Of a stretch of DNA of 64,000 nucleotides, positions 46,693-59,906 are shown in pieces (positions within the stretch are counted from its first letter, which is position 1; each line of letters starts with the position of its first letter). Where the stretch lies: NCBI RefSeq assembly GCF_016313185.1, contig NZ_CP066218.1, positions 6,014,001 to 6,078,000 of the forward strand, given 5' to 3'. The position numbers and the translations under genes are program-made. The notes under the pieces were generated by a model. The model searched no databases, was not told the DNA's origin, and saw only the letters and a list, made by a program, of their open reading frames with translations. This stretch comes from Mycolicibacterium baixiangningiae (GTDB lineage Bacteria > Actinomycetota > Actinomycetes > Mycobacteriales > Mycobacteriaceae).

Positions 46693-47892
46693 TTACGCTC
46701 GGCGACTCGTTGCGGTATAGCCTTCGGCTACTTCCACTAAGACCTCGTCGTCGCTGAAGCCATTTTCCAGCCGGGTCCGCACCGTCGTCAGGTAGCGGGC
46801 AGCGTCAGCGCCGTCGACGATACGATGGTCGTAGGACAGCGACAGGTGCGCCATCGACCGCGCCCGGATGAGAAGGCTACCATCGTTATCACGTTGCGGC
46901 ACAAGCCTTTCGACGACGGCACCTATCCCTAGGATGGCTGATTGCGGTTGATTGATGATCGGAGTATCGAAGAGCGCGCCACGGCTGCCGGTGTTGGTGA
47001 TGGTGAAAGTTCCGCCTGTGAGTTCGTCTGGGCGTATGGCACCGTCGCGAACGGCGTTGGCTGAAGCGGCGATCGCGCGGCTGACCGCCGCGATGCTGTG
47101 GTCTTGGGCATCACGAATGACCGGCACCATGAGCCCCTTTTTGCTGTCGACAGCCATGCCCAAATGCACTGACCTGTAATAGGTGATCTCGGTGCAGTCC
47201 GCGTCAACGGACGCATTGATGATCGGATGCTCGATCAATCCTTCGACCGCAGCGACAACCACGAACGGTAAAAACGACAGCTTGACACCTGTTTGTTCGA
47301 GGAAGGCTTGTTTGTGTTTGGCACGCGATGCGGCAACGAGGGAGAGGTCTACTTCGACGACAGTGGTCAGCTGAGCGGCGGTTTGCAATGACTCCATCAT
47401 GCGTCGGGCGATGGTCCGCCGAATGCGCGGCATCTTCTCCACCCGGTCGGATTGTTCGGTGATGACCGGCACCGCCTGCTCTGCGTCGGTCAACGGCGGC
47501 GGCGCCGATGTCGCCAGCGTGGTCTGTGGGAATGCCGTCTTCTGTTCTGTCTGCGTTGGTGATGTTTCTGCCGGTGCGGGCGGTTGGGCGGCGACGGGTT
47601 GTGTGGTCTGAGGCTGTGGGTCGGCTTCCGGCACGGGTGGTGCAGCGGCGATGCGGGCGATCGTCGCGCCGACCGCCACCACTGCATCTTCGGGCTCGAG
47701 AATTTCGGCCAATATGCCTGCTGCCGGCGCGGGGATTTCGGTGTCGACTTTGTCGGTGGCTACTTCGAGGAGCGGTTCGCCGTCTTCAACGGTGTCGCCT
47801 ACCGATTTGAGCCATCGTGTGATGGTGGCCTCTGTGACGGCCTCCCCCAGCTCGGCGACGGTAACCGCGATGTGGGTCTCTGCGGCTGTCAT
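46693..47892 (-). CDS. 2-oxoacid dehydrogenase E2 (dihydrolipoamide acyltransferase) without a peripheral-subunit-binding domain
   Basis: 399 aa from ATG 47892, one base after the E1 stop. A lipoyl domain, residues about 5-80, carries the lipoyl-Lys in EVATDKVDTEI (Lys48). A Pro/Ala/Thr/Gln linker of about 90 residues follows. The catalytic domain from about 170 has MPRIRRTIARRMMESL, GTFTITNTGSRG and catalytic LSYDHRIVDG near the end. No peripheral-subunit-binding domain (the short E1/E3-binding module between linker and catalytic domain) is seen. E3 must be supplied from elsewhere. As partner of the E1 at 47894 it would form propionyl-CoA from the 2-oxobutanoate made by AcdS. Confidence 0.88.
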   Translation of the reverse strand: MTAAETHIAVTVAELGEAVTEATITRWLKSVGDTVEDGEPLLEVATDKVDTEIPAPAAGILAEILEPEDAVVAVGATIARIAAAPPVPEADPQPQTTQPVAAQPPAPAETSPTQTEQKTAFPQTTLATSAPPPLTDAEQAVPVITEQSDRVEKMPRIRRTIARRMMESLQTAAQLTTVVEVDLSLVAASRAKHKQAFLEQTGVKLSFLPFVVVAAVEGLIEHPIINASVDADCTEITYYRSVHLGMAVDSKKGLMVPVIRDAQDHSIAAVSRAIAASANAVRDGAIRPDELTGGTFTITNTGSRGALFDTPIINQPQSAILGIGAVVERLVPQRDNDGSLLIRARSMAHLSLSYDHRIVDGADAARYLTTVRTRLENGFSDDEVLVEVAEGYTATSRRA

Positions 47893-47893
47893 G

Positions 47894-50231
47894 TCAGCCT
47901 TTCTGAGCGAGATCGAGTGCGGCGCGCACGACGCTGTCGCTGTCGATGCCGTGGTAGCGGTATACGTCTTCCAGTGAGCCCACCTGGCCGAACTTTCTGA
48001 CGCCCAACGCCGTGCCGGGTACACCGTTGATTCCGGTGAGGAACGCCAGGGTGTGGGGGTGGCCGTCGAGAACAGTGACCATTGGTGTCGCGCGCTCCGC
48101 AGGAAAGAGTTGCTCCAGAATCCATGACGGGCTCTCTGAGAGGCCGCGGCGGGCCTGCACTGCGGCGAAGAGCAGCCCTGGGCTAGTCACGCAGACGACA
48201 TCGGCGTCGATTCCTTGGTCGCTGAGACGGCCGGCGGCCGTTAGCGTTTCGGTCATGATCGGCCCCATGCCGACCAGCGTCACTGTTGGCTTGTCGGCGC
48301 GGCGAAGCACGTAACCGCCGGCAATCGTCTGACGGCGCCGACGTTCCCGGGCTGCCGGATCCTCGGGGACGGCGGCCAGCGTCTGGTCGACCGGCCGGGT
48401 CGACAGCCGGAAGTACGACGACGTGCCATCCGGACGACCCAGGCGTCCGATCGCCGACAACAGGGTCCATTCGACATCGATGGCGAACGCCGGCTCGTAA
48501 CTGACGCAGCCGGGCTGCTCCAGACCGATCGAAGGCGTCTTGATCGATTGATGGGCACCGCCTTCGGCGGCCAGTGTGACCCCTGAGGGGGTGCCGATCA
48601 AGATGGATTGTCCGCCGGCGTAGATGCCGTAGGACCACGGCTCCAGCGCACGCTCGACGAACGGGTCATACATCACTCCGATGGGGAACAATGGCTGCCC
48701 CCACCGACTCCAGGTCGCCCCCAGTTCCCCCATCAGGCCCACCAGGTTGGTCTCGGCGATACCCAGTTCCATGTGCTGCCCGGTCGGCTTTTCCCGCCAA
48801 TGCATGACTGTCTCGGAGTCGTCGTCAAACCAGTTGCGTCGCTCGATCGGCGACCACACGCCCACCTTGTTCAGCCAGCCGGCCAGATTGGTCGTCGAGC
48901 TGACGTCGGGGCTGACGGTCACCACCCGCTTGGCGGCCGCGGGTGCCTCACGACTCAAGTCCAGCAGGACCCGGCCCAAGGCCGCCTGAGTGGTCGCCGT
49001 GCCCGACGGGGTGCGGCCCATGTCGCCGGGCACCGGCGGAGGTGTCATCAACTGCGGCGATTCCCGTTTCAGACGCCGCGCAGTCTGGGCGCAGACTTCG
49101 CCCGCGGCGCTGTCCCGGTCGAATGTCGCCCACATCTTGTCGGTGTCCATTCCGAGTTCAGTGGCCAGTTGCTCGTACTGCTCCACCGATAGCAGCGATG
49201 AGTGGTTCTGCGGGTGACCCTGGGTCGGCAGCCCGCGTCCCTTGATGGTGTAGGCGATGATTACGGTTGGCCGGGTGTCATCGATTTGGGCGTATGCCGC
49301 ACGCAGCGCGTCGTGGTCGTGACCACCGAGGTTGCGGATGGCGCGCAGCAGGGTGGCGTCGTCGAGTTCGGCGATCAACGACGCGACAGCGGCTGCGCCC
49401 ACCCCGGTGCCGGGCAGCCGGTCACGGACATCGCTTGCGCTGCAACGAAGCAGCCGTTGGTATTCCGGGTTGGACATCTCCAGGATCCGGGTGCGCAACG
49501 GCTCCGCCGCCCTGACGGCTGAACAACGATTCCAACAGCGTGCCGAACTTGACGGTGATGACCTGCCACCCCGCGGCGGCGAACATCGCCTCCAGGCGAC
49601 CGGCGGCGATGTTCGGCACCACGCGGTCCAGCGACTGGCGGTTCAGATCGACGATCCACACGACTTCACCCAGCTCAGCCACCGAGTGGTCCAAGATGGC
49701 TTCCCAGACCGCACCTTCGTCGAGTTCTGCGTCGCCGACCAACGAGTACTGCCGCCCCTTGCCCGCATCACCGATTTGGGTGTCGACATAGCGGCGGGCG
49801 ATCGCTCCCCAGATGGGTGCGGTGGCCCCGATCCCCACCGAACCTGTCGAATAGTCCACTGGGTCTGGGTCTTTGGCACGGCTGGGATAGGACTGCAAAC
49901 CGCCGAACTGCCGCAGTGTTGGCAGGTATTCTTCATCCAGTTCGCCGAGCAGGTAGTTGATGGCATGCAGTACCGGTGAAGCGTGTGGTTTGACAGACAC
50001 CCGATCACCGGGCTGGAGTTGCTCGAACCACAGCGTGGTCATGATCGACACCATCGATGCACTGGAGGCCTGGTGTCCACCGACCTTGAGGCCGCTGGTG
50101 TTGGGTCGGACACGGTTGGCGTAATGAACGATCGACGTGGACAGCCACAGCACCCGCTGTTCGATCTCGTGCAATGGCGTGGCGGGGCTGTTGACGGGAA
50201 AAGCAGTGCTCTCCACTGCGGCGGTAGCCAT
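47894..50231 (-). pseudogene. AceE-type 2-oxoacid dehydrogenase E1, split by one frameshift
   Basis: About 779 codons in total. The 5' part (ATG 50231 down to about 49505) has HQASSASMVSIMTTLWFE, VKPHASPVLHAINYLLG and the TPP motif VGDAELDEGAVWEAI with VDLNRQS. A one-base slip in GGGCGGCGGAGCC near 49510 moves the frame; the 3' part (to TGA 47894) resumes with AEPLRTRILEMSNPEYQRLL, KGRGLPTQGHP, QHMELGIAETNLVG and TPSGVTLAAEGGAHQS. Length modulo three is 1, consistent with one inserted base. It could be a sequencing error. It is a homodimeric transketolase-like E1; stop codons of acdS and this start are 4 nt apart. Confidence 0.82.
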
Positions 50232-50235
50232 CGCG

Positions 50236-51240
50236 TCAGAAGATCCCGCTGTAGGCGTTCAGCGCGGGTTGCCCGCCCAGGTGCGCATAGAGGACCTTCG
50301 AGGTCGGCTCGATCTGTCCGGACCTGACCAGATCGATGAGGCCGGCCATCGACTTGCCTTCGTACACCGGGTCGATGATGACCCCTTCGAGGCGGCCGGT
50401 CAGTCTGATGGCGTCGATGGTGGACTGGACCGGAATGCCGTAGAGATCACCGGCCCACCCGTCGAGAACCGTTATCTCGTCGTCGGACAGGTCGCGGCCG
50501 AGGCCGATGAGTTCGGCGGTGTTGCGGGCAATGCGCTCGACTTGCTGGCGCGTCTTGTCAAGAGTGGCCGAGGCGTCGATTCCCAAGACACGCCGGGGAC
50601 GGCTTTGCCCGGCGAATCCGGCGATCATCCCAGCGTGGGTGGAACCAGTGACGGTACAGACCACGATGGTATCGAAGAAGATTCCGAGTTCTTCCTCCTG
50701 CTTCTGTACCTCGTACGCCCAGTTCGCGAACCCAAGCCCGCCGAGACGGTGATCGGAGGCGCCGGCGGGAATGGCGTACGGGGTGCCTCCGGCGCGTTTG
50801 ACGTCCTCGATGGCGTTCTGCCAACTGTCTTTGAACTCGATGCCGAAGCCAGAAGGGTCGAGTCGGACGTCGGCGCCCATGATGCGAGACAGGAGGATGT
50901 TGCCCACCTTGTCGTTGACCGAGTCCGGCCAGTCGACCCACTTTTCCTGCACCAGTACCGCTTTGAGTCCGAGCTTAGCTGCCACGGCTGCGACCTGCCG
51001 CGTGTGATTGGACTGCACACCCCCGATTGAGACCAAAGTGTCGGCGCCTTGGGCAAGCGCTTCAGGGATGTAGTACTCCAGCTTGCGGGTCTTGTTGCCC
51101 CCGTATGCCAGCCCGGAGTTGACGTCTTCGCGCTTCGCCCAGATCTCAGCACCTCCGAGGTGATCGCTCAGCCGTCGCAGCGGGTGAACGGGGCTGGGGC
51201 CGAAAGTCAGTGGGTATCGCTCGAAGTCGTCGATGGCCAT
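50236..51240 (-). CDS. acdS: 1-aminocyclopropane-1-carboxylate (ACC) deaminase
   Basis: 334 aa fold-type II PLP enzyme. PLP-Lys in [11 protein letters not shown] (Lys about 51), Ser/Asn/His in [11 protein letters not shown], phosphate loop [11 protein letters not shown]. Residues that separate ACC deaminase from D-cysteine desulfhydrase are those of the deaminase: YEGKSM (Glu about 290) and AHLGGQP (Leu about 318). It opens ACC to 2-oxobutanoate and ammonia. It is first in an operon with 2-oxoacid dehydrogenase E1 and E2. ATG 51240; an AT-rich promoter with a palindrome is at 51325-51357. It suggests use of the plant ethylene precursor. Confidence 0.93.
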
Positions 51241-51457: not shown

Positions 51458-52756
51458 CTAGTTTTGCGCGAACCGCCGCCGCGCCAGCTCTAGCGCGATA
51501 ACGGACGCACCGCAGACAGCGATGTAGAAGTAACTCGGCGAGACCAGCGAGCCGGTGAACTCCACCAGGGCGGCAAAGACCACCGGGGCAGTCCCGCCGA
51601 ACAGCAGAACGCCGATGTTGTAGGCGACCGAGATACCAGTTGTCCTGATAGCCGTTGGGAAGAGGTAACTCATGAGTGCGGGCAGTGGGGCGAAGTAGAA
51701 GGCAAGGATCACACCGAGGACAGCCTGAACCAGGGTCAGTGCGGCCACCGTCGGCGCCTGTTGAAGCAGCCAGAACAGCGGTGCCCCGCCAAGCATCCCC
51801 ACCACGGCCGCAGGTCGCATGACCGTGACGCACCCGAAGCGGTCGGCGAGCTTACCGATCTGGGGCGAACATACCAAGACAGTCAGCCCACCGATGATGC
51901 CGCCGATGTAACCCGAGTAGGTGGGTAGACCCAGGTTTCGAATAGCGAAGGTGGGCATATAGAGCAGCAGGTACATGGTGATGGTCGCTGCCCCCACACA
52001 GCCAGCTGCGGTGAGCACACGGGATAGGTTCTTGCCCAAAGTCGTCCGCAAGGGCGACTTCAGGATTTCTGCGTCGGCGAACTCCGGCGTGTCATCGATC
52101 CTGGCCCTGATGTACAGCCCGACTGGGCCGATCATGAGCCCCACGCCGAACGCGACGCGCCACCCCCACGAATCGAGTTGCGTCGTTGCGAGGGTGGCGG
52201 TCAGGATGAAACTGACCGTCGCGGCCAGAAGCAGTGAGCCCCCCTGCGTGGCAGTTTGCCAGCTGGCGTAGTAGGCCTTGCGACCTACGGCGCTCTCCGT
52301 CAAGAACGTTGTGGCCGAGCCGAATTCACCACCGGCAGAGAAGCCCTGTAGCAAGCGGGCAATCAACACCAGGACTGCAGCGGCCGGGCCGATGTGGCTG
52401 TGTGTGGGGGCGAACGTCAGCAAGAGGGTGCCCACGAACATGATCTGGATGGTGAGGTTTAGTGCCGTCTTACGGCCGCGCCTGTCACCGATGTTCCCGA
52501 TGACCATCGCGCCGATGGGCCGGATGAGGTAAGAGATCGCGAACGTGCCGAAAGTTAGTAGCAGTCCAACGAACTCGCTTTCACTGGGAAAGAACAGCTT
52601 GCTGATCACGGCTGCGAAGTATCCGTAGATCATGATGTCGTACCACTCCAACGCGTTGCCGATAGAGGCAGCGGCCACGGCCTTCTTGGCGCGGGACCGT
52701 TGTTCCTGCGTCAGATCACCGGGAGTCGTCGCGCTTTTCGATGTCGGCATGGTCAT
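51458..52756 (-). CDS. MFS transporter of the metabolite:H+ symporter (MHS) family
   Basis: 432 aa with 12 predicted helices. MHS signatures: [20 protein letters not shown] in TM1, [18 protein letters not shown] (motif A), [35 protein letters not shown], and [17 protein letters not shown] in the C-half. Relatives carry ShiA, ProP, citrate and amino-acid-like substrates. ATG 52756 overlaps the M20 gene stop by 4 nt (ATGA), so the two are cotranscribed. Being between the M20 deacetylase and acdS, it probably imports ACC or an N-acyl/malonyl-ACC-type derivative. Confidence 0.9.
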
Positions 52757-53907
52757 ACCTCGCAATACGTGTCGATGAGTGCGCCAAGGACGCGCTCGCA
52801 TTCAGCGATCTGTTCAATAGCTACGTACTCATCGGCGATGTGAGCCTGCGCGATGCTTCCGGGGCCGCACACAACCGTCTCGATACCCGCAGCGTCGAAG
52901 AAGCCCGCCTCGGTGCCGTAAGCCACGCTCCCGCCGCTACTGACTCCAGCGTCGTTCAGTGCTGCCAGCAGCGTTGAGCGCGGCGAGGTGTCTAATCCTG
53001 GTGCCAGCGCGATTGCCTCAACCGTGATGTCTAGATCCTGCATTTGCTTCTCAAGGGTCTGAGCGTGGGCCCGAACTCTGTCCAGCACTTGCAGCGGCGG
53101 CATGGCTGGGATGGTGCGCAGGTCCAGTCGAATCTGGCAAAGGGCGGGGACTGTGTTGCTTGCGTTACCGCTCAGAATCTGGTTGACGCTGATGGTGCTG
53201 AACGGGACGTCATAGGTCGAGTCGAACGGCCCGTGATCTTCAAACTCTTTGGCTAACTGTTCGATGAAACCGACCAGCTGCGCGCCGTAGAAGGCGGCGT
53301 TGACCAGATGGGGGGCACGAGAGGAATGGCCGTCGACGCCGCGAACGGAGATCGAGGCCAAGGAGAAGGATTTGTGTGCGCGGACTGCCTGCATGCCGGT
53401 CGGCTCGCCGACGACGCAGTGGCGCGGCGAAAGACCGAGTTCTTGCAGATCGCTGGCGATTTGCGCTCCGCCGTGTAGACCGATCTCTTCGTCATAAGAC
53501 AGCACGTAGTGAATGGGCTCGCGTAGCTGCGCTTGCTGAATGCGAGGCACCACCGACAGTGCCGCACCGATGAATCCCTTCATATCGGCAGTGCCGCGTC
53601 CGTAGATTCGGCCGTCCTTCACCTCAGCGGTGTATGGATCACTGGTCCAATCTTGGCCCTCGACCGGAACTGCATCAGTGTGCCCCGATAGCACCAGGCC
53701 GCCGGCGAGGGATCCGTCTGCAGACGGGAATGAGGCTACCAAGTTAGCCTTGTTGCGGTGCTGGTTCGGCCGAAAGGCCGTGCGCGCGCCTGCCTTTCGC
53801 AACTGAGTGTCGATCAACTCGAGGATCGGTAAGTTGCTGCGGTCGCTGGTGGAATCAATGGCCACAAGCTCCTTGATCCATTGCAGTGAAGTGAGTTCGT
53901 CGGTCAC
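52753..53907 (-). CDS. M20 deacetylase (ArgE-like)
   Basis: 384 aa from GTG 53907, with AGGAGA 6 nt upstream. M20 signatures: LSGHTDAVPVEG, GRGTADMKGFIG, LSYDEEIGLHG, VVGEPTGM, and the last His in QAHIADEY; dimerisation domain with VRGVDGHSS. Overall it fits acetylornithine deacetylase/succinyl-diaminopimelate desuccinylase. In plants ACC is stored as malonyl-ACC or gamma-glutamyl-ACC. Removal of such an acyl group before AcdS is a plausible role (inference). Divergent to the Lrp gene at 54056 and cotranscribed with the MFS gene. Confidence 0.88.
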   Translation of the reverse strand: MTDELTSLQWIKELVAIDSTSDRSNLPILELIDTQLRKAGARTAFRPNQHRNKANLVASFPSADGSLAGGLVLSGHTDAVPVEGQDWTSDPYTAEVKDGRIYGRGTADMKGFIGAALSVVPRIQQAQLREPIHYVLSYDEEIGLHGGAQIASDLQELGLSPRHCVVGEPTGMQAVRAHKSFSLASISVRGVDGHSSRAPHLVNAAFYGAQLVGFIEQLAKEFEDHGPFDSTYDVPFSTISVNQILSGNASNTVPALCQIRLDLRTIPAMPPLQVLDRVRAHAQTLEKQMQDLDITVEAIALAPGLDTSPRSTLLAALNDAGVSSGGSVAYGTEAGFFDAAGIETVVCGPGSIAQAHIADEYVAIEQIAECERVLGALIDTYCEV

Positions 53908-54055: not shown

Positions 54056-55060
54056 ATGATGCACGTAGGCGCCTTGACAGAGGAAGATCTGTCACTCCTG
54101 CACGCACTCCAGATCAGCCCCAGAGCCTCGTGGACTGCGCTCGGGCAAGTCTTGGAGCGTTCGCCGGCCGCGCTGGCTGCTCGATGGTCGCGGCTCCGCG
54201 AGGCCGGCTTGGCATGGGTCACGGTGCACCCGATCATTAAGTCCCCCCGTACGCAGATGGCGTTTGTCGAAGTCGATTGTCTTCCAACCCACCGGACCCG
54301 AGTCGTCAACGAGCTGTGTCGCGTGCCCGAGATCATCTCGATTGAGTTATCCGCGCGTGGCAGGGATCTCTTGCTGATGGTGGTCGCACACGATTGGGCG
54401 ACTCTGTCAGGTTTGGTTCTGTCGCGGTTGCAGCTCGATGGGATTCTGCGGCATCGCACTAGCCTGGTGACTGAGATTCATATCGAGGCATCGGATTGGC
54501 GTCTGGATGCGCTAAATCGTTCACAATCAACGCGATTGGCTGCCGCCGAAGCTAGTGTCACGCTGGCTACACCGAACTATCATGCCTCCGACTCACAGCT
54601 GGTAGCGCTACTAGCGGCCGACGGCCGCATCGGCTTCGCCGACCTCGCCCGCCTCACCGGTCGAACCCCGGCTACGGTGCGTCGGCAGGTTGCTCGACTC
54701 CTTGCCACAGGGGCGGTGCGGTTCCGGTGTGAAATCTCGCAAGAGAGTTCGCGGTGGCCGATCTGCTGCACGTGGTTCTGCCGTGTCGACTCCCGGCATC
54801 TCAGCGAGACTGCGCATGATCTCCGGTCGTTACCGGAGATTCGGGGATGCTTCTCGACCACGGGTGAGTCCAATTTGATGTTCATCGCCTGGGCGCGATC
54901 CGTCACCGATCTCTTGCGGATCGAAAAAGAGGTCACTCAGCGCCAGCCCTCACTACGCGTACTGGACAGCGCCGTGGCGCTCTCCACTCGTAAGCGGATC
55001 GGATGGCTCTTGGACGATCACGGCTGCGCCGTGGGTGATGTGGTTACGCCAGAGTTCTGA
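54056..55060 (+). CDS. Lrp/AsnC family regulator with two tandem modules
   Basis: 334 aa, twice the usual length. Module 1 (residues 1-150): LTEEDLSLLHALQISPRAS, LERSPAALAARWSRLREAGL, then a RAM-like domain. Module 2 (about 175-330): SDSQLVALLAADGRIGFADL, LTGRTPATVRRQVARLLATG, and RVDSRHLSETAHDLRSLPEI. Such two-module AsnC proteins are common in actinobacteria. AcdR, the known regulator of ACC deaminase genes, is also Lrp-type. Divergent to the M20/MFS genes (148-nt gap) and near the palindromic acdS promoter. ATG 54056 or 54059; GCAGGA precedes them. Confidence 0.88.
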   Translation: MMHVGALTEEDLSLLHALQISPRASWTALGQVLERSPAALAARWSRLREAGLAWVTVHPIIKSPRTQMAFVEVDCLPTHRTRVVNELCRVPEIISIELSARGRDLLLMVVAHDWATLSGLVLSRLQLDGILRHRTSLVTEIHIEASDWRLDALNRSQSTRLAAAEASVTLATPNYHASDSQLVALLAADGRIGFADLARLTGRTPATVRRQVARLLATGAVRFRCEISQESSRWPICCTWFCRVDSRHLSETAHDLRSLPEIRGCFSTTGESNLMFIAWARSVTDLLRIEKEVTQRQPSLRVLDSAVALSTRKRIGWLLDDHGCAVGDVVTPEF

Positions 55061-56215: not shown

Positions 56216-57304
56216 TCAGGCGATATTGGTGTAGGGAACACCACCGCGGGCAACGCCGTCGTGGTTGACGCCACGGTCGAAGTCGAACGGCAGCGGACGC
56301 CCGTTTTCCATTGCGAGCCAGAGCCGTACCAGCAGTCGGCGATTGGATTCGTCTTCGGAGTCGATGAACTCGGAGCGGCCGTGCATGACGCTGTAGTTGT
56401 TCGCGATCACCAGGTCACCGGAACCGAATCCGACTTCGACGCCGCCTTCGTTGGATATCTCGTCGAAGACCTCCATGAGCCTGAGCTGACGCTCGGTCAA
56501 CGGCGGACAGTCACCGCGCTCTTGCGCTGCGTCGATGAGCAACCGCACGTAGCGGCTGGTGATCTTGCCGTTGACGATGGTGCACAGCCGGGTCAGGTAG
56601 TAGCTGGTGTCCCCTTCGAGGATCTCCATCTGCCGATCGAAGGGGAAGTAGTCCTCGAAGAGCGAGGGCAGCAGTTCGGGGTAGCGGCGGGCGATCTCCT
56701 TGACAGTGCGTGCGGAGCTGGAGACCACGGAGTTTCCGCCGACCATGGCCTGACGAATGCACATGAGCATCAACAGGTCGGAACCGTCGGTGTGGTAACC
56801 CAAACCCTCGTTGGTGTTCTCCGGCCGGACAATGTCCTGCCGGGCCTTTTTGCGTTGAGCCAGGGAGGCGAGCAGGGTCCCGCCACCCATCTGGTTGACG
56901 GGTTGTCCGATGGCGGCGCCGATGAGCCAGAGCAGGTTCTCGTTATAGGGCAGTTCGGCATCAGGGGTGCGCACCGGCAAGTTGCGCAACAAGGCGATGC
57001 CGGTGCCGCCCTCGAGGGAATGTTCGACGCCTGTGAAGTATTTGATCAGCGGTGCGGCGAGTTTCTTCCATTCCTCGCGGGTACCGTTTCCTTCCGACCA
57101 CTGGCCGAACTTTTCGGTTGCTTCCACGGCGAGTTCACCGAGTAGCGCGCTTTCGGCATCGGTGAGGGCCAGATCCCATGTGTCGCGCCGGCTTTCGAGT
57201 TCCTCGGCATTCCATGCGGCGGGCTCATCGAGGTCCAGGATGTAGTTGCGCACCCGATCGAGTCCCGAGGTGATCAGGGGGGTGGGGCTGTAGGAGGTCG
57301 TCAT
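56216..57304 (-). CDS. Fe(II)/2-oxoglutarate dioxygenase (TauD/TfdA family), copy 1
   Basis: 362 aa. Facial triad HxD in LGYHTDGSDLL (about residues 176-178) and distal His in SVMHGRSEF (about 305), with 2-oxoglutarate Arg in RRLLVRLWLAMENG (about 322). N-terminal 90 residues (AAWNAEELESRRDTWDLALTDAE) are helical. It is a neighbour-duplicate of the gene at 57565, with the same length and about 88 percent identical residues by eye. Known relatives hydroxylate taurine, herbicides or trimethylamine-type compounds. Function here is unknown. The 260-nt gap upstream contains a possible promoter. Confidence 0.9.
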   Translation of the reverse strand: MTTSYSPTPLITSGLDRVRNYILDLDEPAAWNAEELESRRDTWDLALTDAESALLGELAVEATEKFGQWSEGNGTREEWKKLAAPLIKYFTGVEHSLEGGTGIALLRNLPVRTPDAELPYNENLLWLIGAAIGQPVNQMGGGTLLASLAQRKKARQDIVRPENTNEGLGYHTDGSDLLMLMCIRQAMVGGNSVVSSSARTVKEIARRYPELLPSLFEDYFPFDRQMEILEGDTSYYLTRLCTIVNGKITSRYVRLLIDAAQERGDCPPLTERQLRLMEVFDEISNEGGVEVGFGSGDLVIANNYSVMHGRSEFIDSEDESNRRLLVRLWLAMENGRPLPFDFDRGVNHDGVARGGVPYTNIA

Positions 57305-57564: not shown

Positions 57565-58653
57565 TCAGGCAATGCTGGTGTAGGGGACACCGCCGCGGGC
57601 GACGCCGTCGTGATTGACGCCACGGTCGAAATCGAACGGCAGCGGACGGCCGTTTTCCATTGCGAGCCAGAGCCGTACGAGCAGCCGGCGCTGGGATTCG
57701 TCCTCGGAGTCGAGGAACTCAGAACGCCCGTGCATGACGCTGTAGTTGTTCGCGATCACCAGGTCGCCGGAATCGAATCCAACTTCGACGCCGCCTTCGT
57801 TGGATATCTCGTCGAAGACCTCCATGAGTGCGACCTGACGCTCGGTCAAGGGCGGGCAATCTCCTCGGTAGAGCGCCGCATCGGTCAGTGGACGCACGTA
57901 GCGGGTGGTGATCTTGCCGTCGACGATGGTGCACAGCCGGCTCAGGTAGTAGGTGGTGTCGCCGTCGAGGATCTCCATCTGCCGGTCGAACGGGTAGTGA
58001 TCCTCGAACAGGGCGGGTAGTAGTTCGGGGTAGCGGCGGGCGATCTCCTTGACGGTGCGTGCCGCGCTGGACACCATCGAGTTGCCGCCCACCATGGCCT
58101 GACGAATGCACATGAGCATCAGCAGGTCTGAGCCGTCGGTGTGGTAACTGAGGCCTTCGTTGGTGTTCTCCGCGCGGGGATGGTCAGGGCGTGCCTTTCC
58201 CTTGTAGGCCAGTCGAGCCAGTACGGTGCCGCCGCCCATCTGGTTGACGGGTTGTCCCATGGCGGCGCCGATGAGCCAGAGCAGGTTCTCGTTGTACGGC
58301 AGTTCGGCATCAGGGGTGCGCACCGGCAGGTTGCGCAGCAGCGCGATACCGGTGCCGCCCTCGAGGGAGTGCTCGACGGTGGAAAAGTACTTGGTCAGCG
58401 GGGCGGCGAGCTTCTTCCACTCGTCGCGGGTGCCGTTTCCCTCCGACCACTGACCGAACGTCTCGGTTGCTTCCACGGTGAGCTCACCCAATAGCGCGCT
58501 TTCGGCGTCGGTGAGGGCCAGATCCCAGGTATCGCGGCGTGATTCGAGTTCGTCGGCGTTCCAAGCAGCGGGCTCGTCGAGGCTCAGGACGTAGTTGCGT
58601 ACTCGTTCGATTCCCGAGGTTGTCAACGGACTCGGTGAAACGGACGTGGTCAT
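57565..58653 (-). CDS. Fe(II)/2-oxoglutarate dioxygenase (TauD/TfdA family), copy 2
   Basis: 362 aa. The same landmarks as copy 1: HxD in LSYHTDGSDLL, distal His in SVMHGRSEF, Arg in RRLLVRLWLAMENG. Differences concentrate in residues 1-30, 140-160 (VLARLAYKGKARPDHPRAEN against LLASLAQRKKARQDIVRPEN) and 240-260, which may shape substrate choice. ATG 58653 overlaps the MFS stop by 4 nt (ATGA). The open frame continues upstream to 59427, but that is the shadow of the MFS gene. A direct tandem duplication is evident; one copy may handle a second hydroxylation step. Confidence 0.92.
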   Translation of the reverse strand: MTTSVSPSPLTTSGIERVRNYVLSLDEPAAWNADELESRRDTWDLALTDAESALLGELTVEATETFGQWSEGNGTRDEWKKLAAPLTKYFSTVEHSLEGGTGIALLRNLPVRTPDAELPYNENLLWLIGAAMGQPVNQMGGGTVLARLAYKGKARPDHPRAENTNEGLSYHTDGSDLLMLMCIRQAMVGGNSMVSSAARTVKEIARRYPELLPALFEDHYPFDRQMEILDGDTTYYLSRLCTIVDGKITTRYVRPLTDAALYRGDCPPLTERQVALMEVFDEISNEGGVEVGFDSGDLVIANNYSVMHGRSEFLDSEDESQRRLLVRLWLAMENGRPLPFDFDRGVNHDGVARGGVPYTSIA

Positions 58654-59906
58654 TGCGGCTCCTTGGTCAAGGTCGGTTCCAGTGGTTCTGAGAGGCCGTT
58701 GAACTGAGGGAACTGGGATCGGTCGACAACCGCCCGAGGTATCAGCCACCACTGCGCGATCGCGACGAGGACAAGAACAACCCCCACCGTGGCAACAGCG
58801 TCGATTCCGCGCCACGCGTACATGAGCGGTCCCAACGGCCCCCCGATTCCACCTCCCAAAAAGACGATGAAACTGAATACCGTGTTGAGCTGGGCAGACC
58901 GCTCGGGGTCGGTCGCCAGGGCCCGAACTTGATTGCCCGACAACGCCGATTGGTTCGCCCACGTCGCGACGAACATGACAGCTCCGAAAGCGACAGGCGT
59001 GCTGTTGGTCAGCAGAATGGCCATCATCGCCGTCAGCAGAATGAGCAGGAACCACCCCGTCATTCGTCTGGCCCCGTGCCGGTCGATGAGACGGCCCGCA
59101 TACGGGGTGAAGAACCCTGCGACCAGCCCCACCACGCCGAAGAGACCGGCCTGCCCCAGGGTCCACGAAAGCTCGGGTCCGGTGAGATGGAGAACCATCA
59201 CTGTCCAGAGCGCATTGAACGTCGCCAGCACACAGGCCTGGGTCAGCGCTGATCGCACCAGGATCGCGTTGGACAACGCCCGTCGCAACGTCGCGAGGAC
59301 GAGTCGACCATGCGTCAGTGCTCCACCTTCCGGCGCAGGCGCGTGCCGCAGCGCCCAGCGGGTCGAGGGAATCGTGGCGGCGACAGCCAGCGCGGAGACG
59401 AATACGGTTCCGCGCCACCCGATCCACTCAGCACACAGGCTGGCGAGAACTCTGCCACCGAAGATTCCGACGAGCAACGCTCCCACGAGCACAGCGTTCG
59501 TCTTGCCTCTGCTGTCGTGGGTGCTCATCCGGTTTGCCGCCGGAATGAGCACCTGTGAGACGTTCGCGACCAGTCCGACAGCCAGGAACGCTGCCATGGC
59601 GCCGTAGAAACTCGGAACCACCGTGGCCAACAGCAGTGTGCAGGTGAGAGCGAGCGTCTGGTAGGTCACCTGCTTCCTGACCTCGAGACGAGCGGCGAGC
59701 GGTACGAGAAGCAGGATCCCGACGGCATAACCGACTTGCGCGATCATCGCGAGCACACTGGCGAGCCCGTGTGATACGCCGAGATCGCCGGCAATACTCG
59801 TGAGCAGAGACTGCGGAATGTAGATGACGCTGACGGTCAAGCTGCAGGCACCCGACAAGGCGAGCAAACGCAGCCAACCCAATCTCCCGGCGACAGAAGC
59901 GGTCAT
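58650..59906 (-). CDS. MFS transporter (YnfM/AraJ-like)
   Basis: 418 aa with about 12 helices. The N-half has SVIYIPQSLLTSIAGDLGVS, YAVGILLLVPLAARLEVRK; the C-half has FFTPYAGRLIDRHGARR. SGNQVRALATDP and VFSFIVFLGGGIGG fit YnfM-like drug/metabolite exporters. Both ends overlap neighbours by 4 nt (ATGA with M20 upstream and dioxygenase downstream). An exporter in a catabolic operon would remove a toxic intermediate or a by-product, while the ABC importer at 62.0-64.0 kb takes up the substrate. Confidence 0.9.
   Translation of the reverse strand: MTASVAGRLGWLRLLALSGACSLTVSVIYIPQSLLTSIAGDLGVSHGLASVLAMIAQVGYAVGILLLVPLAARLEVRKQVTYQTLALTCTLLLATVVPSFYGAMAAFLAVGLVANVSQVLIPAANRMSTHDSRGKTNAVLVGALLVGIFGGRVLASLCAEWIGWRGTVFVSALAVAATIPSTRWALRHAPAPEGGALTHGRLVLATLRRALSNAILVRSALTQACVLATFNALWTVMVLHLTGPELSWTLGQAGLFGVVGLVAGFFTPYAGRLIDRHGARRMTGWFLLILLTAMMAILLTNSTPVAFGAVMFVATWANQSALSGNQVRALATDPERSAQLNTVFSFIVFLGGGIGGPLGPLMYAWRGIDAVATVGVVLVLVAIAQWWLIPRAVVDRSQFPQFNGLSEPLEPTLTKEPQ

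Follow-up and report, generated by a model that had tools for sequence, protein, structure and literature searches.

Background

The mdeA-mdeB pair of Pseudomonas consists of a methionine gamma-lyase gene and a gene for an AceE-like E1, the decarboxylating component of a 2-oxoacid dehydrogenase, that serves for 2-oxobutanoate. In Mycolicibacterium baixiangningiae we find a locus of similar build around acdS, the gene for the deaminase of 1-aminocyclopropane-1-carboxylate (ACC), the plant ethylene precursor, with genes for an E1 and an E2 behind it. It lies in a window of 64,000 nucleotides (the whole stretch analysed), positions 6,014,001-6,078,000 of a single-contig genome of 6,181,092 bases, and is probably an ACC-catabolism module of the mdeAB kind. 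As in mdeA-mdeB, and in the same order in roseobacters, a pyridoxal phosphate (PLP) enzyme making 2-oxobutanoate stands directly upstream of an AceE-like E1, here on one strand with it. The differences are that AcdS stands in for methionine gamma-lyase, that there is also a gene for an E2 and that E1 is frame-broken; the likeness to mdeA-mdeB lies in gene order and expected function.

An operon of acdS with a major facilitator superfamily (MFS) transporter and an M20 peptidase was described in Saccharopolyspora and Streptomyces (Nascimento 2014, PMC4048297). The window acdS likewise accompanies an MFS transporter and an M20 gene; that association is not new. A reading of the present locus from the letters of the sequence, the sequence-only reading, had held that acdS usually occurs alone or with an Lrp-type regulator, and thereby overlooked these published neighbours, as well as the GntR neighbours given in the same paper. 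Neither "dehydrogenase" nor "transketolase" occurs in the accessible main text of PMC4048297 or in the accessible text of PMC5827301, and no acdS-E1 link was found in the open-licence literature searched, which is weak evidence of novelty. According to PMC10256816, tomato exudate raised aceE/mdeB as well as mdeA in P. donghuensis.

Organisation of the acdS-E1-E2 locus

The genes run on the minus strand in the order M20, MFS, acdS, E1 piece 1, E1 piece 2 and E2, with an Lrp gene divergent from M20 (Table 1). AcdS scored 541.5 bits against the ACC deaminase model, whose cut-off is 392, and residues K50, S77, Y293, E294 and L321 are all there, as judged by motif matching without alignment to a reference protein; Lys, Ser, Tyr, Glu and Leu residues are given as key for ACC deaminase in the part of PMC4048297 available. 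The sequence-only reading had placed E1 4 nt behind acdS and E2 1 nt behind the E1 stop, and the coordinates bear out both spacings. Its assignment of E1 to the AceE type holds as far as homology goes, but not for a single gene, because the homology is spread over two frames. The two pieces scored 114.6 and 90.2 bits against TIGR00759, the model of AceE, the homodimeric pyruvate dehydrogenase E1, and thus fall under its cut-off of 859.9, as does an intact E1 relative (222.9 bits); a true AceE is encoded elsewhere in the genome, at 2.395 Mb (1502 bits). Piece 1 is 84% identical to the E1 of Rhodococcus tibetensis, and piece 2 up to 82% identical to E1s of other mycobacteria. The E2 announced behind it is whole, with one lipoyl and one catalytic acyltransferase domain and the motifs TDKVD and DHRIVDG; it scored 420.2 bits against SucB_Actino TIGR02927, slightly below the cut-off of 423.45, and Pfam reported a peripheral subunit-binding domain in none of the four E2s scanned (the window, L051, L046 and L205). 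The MFS, M20 and two-module Lrp genes were also found as described, at 51.5-55.1 kb.

In the explanation that we favour, AcdS would open ACC to 2-oxobutanoate and ammonia, as is the function of its family, and E1-E2, with a shared E3, would oxidatively decarboxylate 2-oxobutanoate to propionyl-CoA, which the methylcitrate pathway could then burn; PrpD-family genes are present in the genome. M20 and the MFS transporter may supply ACC released from an N-acyl form.

Recurrence of the acdS-E1 pair

The acdS-E1 combination recurs as a module in other bacteria. Among 80 named acdS loci of 80-92% identity, some of which end at contig ends, so that absence there is weak evidence, six have E1 on the same strand no more than 4 kb downstream of acdS (R. 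tibetensis, Ornithinimicrobium cavernae, Nocardioides luteus, Nesterenkonia sp. E16_10, N. lijunqiniae and Sediminivirga luteola), and in one, from Acrocarpospora, E1 lies about 1.5 kb from acdS on the opposite strand. Wenjunlia has a C-terminal E1 remnant of 53-74 residues behind acdS (L066, 11208-11429), which may be a sign of pair loss. Across 401 genomes of the family, seven have acdS over the cut-off, and E1 was found at acdS in the window genome and in only two others, both Rhodococcus (G145 and G272). Two Rhodococcus genomes keep acdS-E1-E2, with lipA and ridA interposed between acdS and E1; the sequence-only reading had named the lack of the trio in any other genome as what would speak against it. 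The pair without E2 occurs in other actinobacteria and in alphaproteobacteria. At two Rhodococcus loci (L058 and L059), acdS lacks E1 but is accompanied by a two-module Lrp and an amidase, and another genome of the window's genus (G232) has acdS at 6873-7868 of contig C46.

A less biased sample was provided by 394 genomes of the class, which were searched for both genes and counted by hand (E1 at 650 bits or more, excluding fragments in G928, G811 and G795). E1 was present in 57 of them, acdS over the cut-off in 54, and both in nine. Four of the nine (the window genome, G985, G1080 and G953) have the two genes within 2 kb on one strand, while in the remaining five they are far apart or on separate contigs of drafts. 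With the window genome excluded, 3/8 are paired, against 0.0024 expected under a rough model that places the genes at random (within 3 kb in 5 Mb) and ignores relatedness. The pairing is not due to chance.

A joined query of Rhizobium etli acdS and E1, through which proteobacteria were sampled by their plasmids only, matched 577 plasmid records, 15 of which have one place covering at least 80% of it. Among the matches listed (11 of the 15), both genes are whole and on one strand; these come from R. etli, Paroceanicella, Salipiger, six Ensifer adhaerens, R. johnstonii and R. leguminosarum. An apparent acdS remnant was seen in Shinella HZN7.

The plasmid of Rhodococcus pseudokoreensis carries acdS-lipA-ridA-E1-E2, near pdxS, a flavin adenine dinucleotide (FAD) enzyme resembling D-amino-acid dehydrogenase, a second RidA, a two-module Lrp and an amidase. 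The window shares with it the order acdS-E1-E2, the two-module Lrp (about 25% identity over both modules) and an amide hydrolase, but this hydrolase is of the M20 rather than the amidase-signature type, the E1 is of another branch, and lipA, ridA and pdxS gave no match in window positions 42-60 kb. The order in Salipiger is amidase, RidA, FAD enzyme, Lrp, acdS and E1, and the identities to R. pseudokoreensis are 29% for the FAD enzyme, 31% for RidA (to the second RidA) and 37% for the amidase.

Gene contexts of E1

Because methionine gamma-lyase and prpB-prpC also accompany E1, the gene contexts point to 2-oxobutanoate as the compound taken in and propionyl-CoA as the one released. In Ruegeria, Sulfitobacter and Leisingera, methionine gamma-lyase is directly upstream of E1, with a divergent Lrp. 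In G985, acdS and E1 share one locus (L311, 6510-11704), with Lrp and a Cys/Met-metabolism enzyme between them; the best model for the enzyme is methionine gamma-lyase, at 298 bits, below that model's cut-off. Genes prpB-prpC were found downstream of E1 in two of the 86 loci searched for them, following it in G1011, where both exceed their cut-offs, and some way downstream in G834. As separate observations, L311 appears to place two likely 2-oxobutanoate makers beside one E1, and small-genome actinobacteria (L314, 3061-8995, and L320) have E1 near prpB-prpC plus a third gene, suspected to be prpD.

Other contexts differ. The Lrp-E1 arrangement is without an adjacent catabolic partner in Shinella, Tistrella, Pseudosulfitobacter and Mesorhizobium; the plasmid of Rhodococcus pyridinivorans (L207) has Lrp-E1-E2-acetolactate synthase, resembling the paralogue set of the window genome; Arthrobacter has an aminotransferase beside E1, and mycobacteria have acyl-CoA ligases or ring-hydroxylation genes nearby. 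With so many E1s devoid of acdS, gamma-lyase or prp partners, the E1 family need not be tied to one pathway.

The role of 2-oxobutanoate dehydrogenase, which the sequence-only reading had proposed for this locus, is well supported as a prediction for the acdS-linked kind of E1, given the recurring acdS-E1, gamma-lyase and prp contexts. It is weaker for the window copy, because that E1 is frame-broken, the 12 named mycobacterial acdS loci lack E1 and the nearest E1-E2 relatives have other neighbours and no acdS, so that the substrate of this copy lacks an anchor of its own.

Alternative explanations

The E1 homology is interrupted by a net +1 break near 49.5 kb. It cuts the thiamine-binding domain, since one piece matches positions 57-217 of the Transketolase_N profile and the other positions 210-283. 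Five relatives are single open reading frames of 777-806 aa, namely the paralogue of the same genome (777), R. tibetensis (783), Ornithinimicrobium (790), Nocardioides luteus (782) and Nesterenkonia (806). Comparison of both pieces with seven relatives gave nonsynonymous (dN) and synonymous (dS) divergence of 0.06-0.17 and 0.9-1.8, respectively, and pairwise dN/dS of 0.05-0.19; neither piece has a further stop. Both pieces thus look constrained, which suggests that the break is either a young mutation or an assembly error, two cases that are indistinguishable here. The E1 copy as sequenced may be newly inactive, may be rescued by the paralogous E1-E2, or may reflect a sequence error. That paralogue, at 5.775 Mb, is intact, with 88% and 79% identity over pieces 1 and 2 and 62% over E2.

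It is possible, if doubtful, that the operon is decaying, in which case E1 would be a pseudogene and acdS would be kept only for nitrogen; this would be compatible with the mdeAB-like explanation for the kind as a whole. Decay would agree with the frame break and with the other broken or fragmentary E1s, which include a G548 copy in two overlapping pieces (C37:50134-51725) that breaks at a different place, a G662 copy with stops (C285:105507-107098) and a G928 copy from the class search, also in two pieces. Named mycobacterial acdS loci lack E1 as a rule, and the E1 remnant of Wenjunlia and the apparent acdS remnant of Shinella HZN7 suggest that pairs do break up. The low dN/dS of the pieces, their freedom from further stops and the whole E2 speak against decay.

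Several observations weigh against an ACC-dedicated module in this genome. A module of the mdeAB type would have an intact E1 frame, and here E1 lies in two. A tree of 90 E1s, quickly built, with the window represented by piece 2 only and with many forks open, puts the window E1 together with four mycobacterial E1s; these are accompanied by E2 but not by acdS, and acyl-CoA ligases stand near them. E1 accompanies none of the 12 mycobacterial loci in the named acdS set, and acdS was found neither at the best-scoring E1 loci of the class (L209-L238, 1.5 kb flanks, duplicates dropped) nor at any of another 40 E1 loci from the genus. The neighbours of the paralogue (L051, 5.768-5.788 Mb) are IlvD/EDD, an acetolactate-synthase-like thiamine enzyme, LysR and MFS genes, and its place beside IlvD and a second thiamine enzyme implies that the clade may use other 2-oxoacids. 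The position of the window E1 on a branch separate from the acdS-linked E1s of Rhodococcus also argues against reading its substrate from Rhodococcus alone.

An alternative that we consider unlikely is that E1-E2 is a general mycobacterial catabolic dehydrogenase for branched, aromatic or pathway-specific 2-oxoacids, which a rearrangement placed behind acdS and which in this genome is not specially linked to ACC. Among 396 genomes of the genus, a close E1 (E < 1e-180) was counted by hand in 77, with identified neighbours that vary (acyl-CoA ligases, ring hydroxylase and FAA hydrolase, IlvD and a thiamine enzyme), and such loci are nearest to the window E1 on the tree. However, the 4-nt and 1-nt spacings, together with acdS-E1 pairings on other branches, make chance placement improbable. 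Indeed, acdS-linked E1s are scattered over several places of the tree, and the label requires 10 changes, at least eight of them forced by starred branches, which implies that the two genes came together or parted more than once; the sample was partly picked for acdS or gamma-lyase, so that the count is not a rate. Shuffled labels required 13.3 changes on average, and only 5/500 shuffles were as low, so the acdS label is clustered as well. The separation of the window E1 from the Rhodococcus branch implies that the pairing in the window arose or was kept separately, and such recurrence of separate pairings argues for function. A programmed frameshift, or an E1 made of two subunits like split transketolases, hardly merits credence and was rejected: although an E1 relative matched, among other solved structures, the split-chain transketolase 6yak, the break falls within the thiamine-binding domain, each intact relative measured is one chain, and G548 breaks elsewhere.

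Amide hydrolases and the supply of ACC

Amide hydrolases were sought within 7 kb, with seeds taken from the same genome (13 other M20 proteins and 15 amidases). An M20 or amidase gene was found at 7/14 acdS loci with E1 and at 5/72 without it (Fisher p = 0.0003, ignoring relatedness); the window, which prompted the comparison, is counted in and the Wenjunlia locus left out, a match in L249 in which Pfam saw nothing was dropped, and the five matches without E1 and that in L091 stand without a Pfam check. Neither hydrolase was found at any of the 40 E1 loci of the genus lacking acdS. This excess hints at the use of conjugated ACC without showing it. In Paraburkholderia and Agrobacterium, similar M20-MFS pairs adjoin other amino-acid genes, which suggests that such pairs take up N-acyl amino acids and deacylate them; in the window the compound would perhaps be N-malonyl-ACC, a plant conjugate (PMC5827301). 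The window M20 scored 445.7 bits against NF005710 (cut-off 412), and since it also exceeds the cut-off of the acetylornithine deacetylase model TIGR01892 (360.9 versus 297.7 bits), an ordinary ArgE-like role is possible, which counts against the conjugate reading.

A wider view, which we put forward as speculative and do not expect to hold in full, is that of a cross-phylum island for plant-conjugated ACC, assembled several times and making ACC deaminase part of a carbon-gaining pathway. The transporter would import N-malonyl-ACC or a similar compound, M20 or amidase would free ACC, AcdS and RidA would yield 2-oxobutanoate, and a dedicated E1, with or without E2, would convert it to propionyl-CoA; in Rhodococcus, the cluster's own lipoate and PLP synthesis genes might serve the pathway.

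Features of the window

Table 1. Genes of the acdS-E1-E2 locus and its neighbours, in window positions
Feature	Position	Strand	Model or domain
E2, lipoyl and acyltransferase domains, 399 aa	46693-47892	-	PF00364, PF00198
E1 fragment 2, remainder of E1 (mechanical start codon)	47894-49498	-	aceE profile 311-858
E1 fragment 1, thiamine diphosphate-binding part	49422-50231	-	aceE profile 78-306
acdS, ACC deaminase, 334 aa	50236-51240	-	TIGR01274
MFS transporter, metabolite:H+ symporter kind	51458-52756	-	PF07690
M20 deacylase, ArgE type (inferred start)	52753-53907	-	NF005710, TIGR01892
Two-module Lrp/AsnC regulator (inferred start)	54056-55060	+	two helix-turn-helix and two ligand-binding stretches

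The M20 gene overlaps the MFS start by 4 nt, and the MFS protein scored 318.1 bits against TIGR00883, under the cut-off of 443.45. Past the Lrp gene and an epimerase gene are two similar tandem TauD-family dioxygenase genes (PF02668) at 56216-57304 and 57565-58680. Rfam at gathering scores yielded no match at 44-60 kb, and the tRNA scan of the whole window no gene; G+C per 2-kb block at 40-64 kb is 0.61-0.66, with no island step.

Conclusions

The gene for ACC deaminase has been studied widely for its part in promoting plant growth, and the usual theme is the lowering of plant ethylene. Its recurrent association with a 2-oxoacid dehydrogenase partner, joined in Rhodococcus by lipA (lipoate synthase) and RidA, suggests that some bacteria are equipped to gain carbon from ACC and to remove 2-oxobutanoate.

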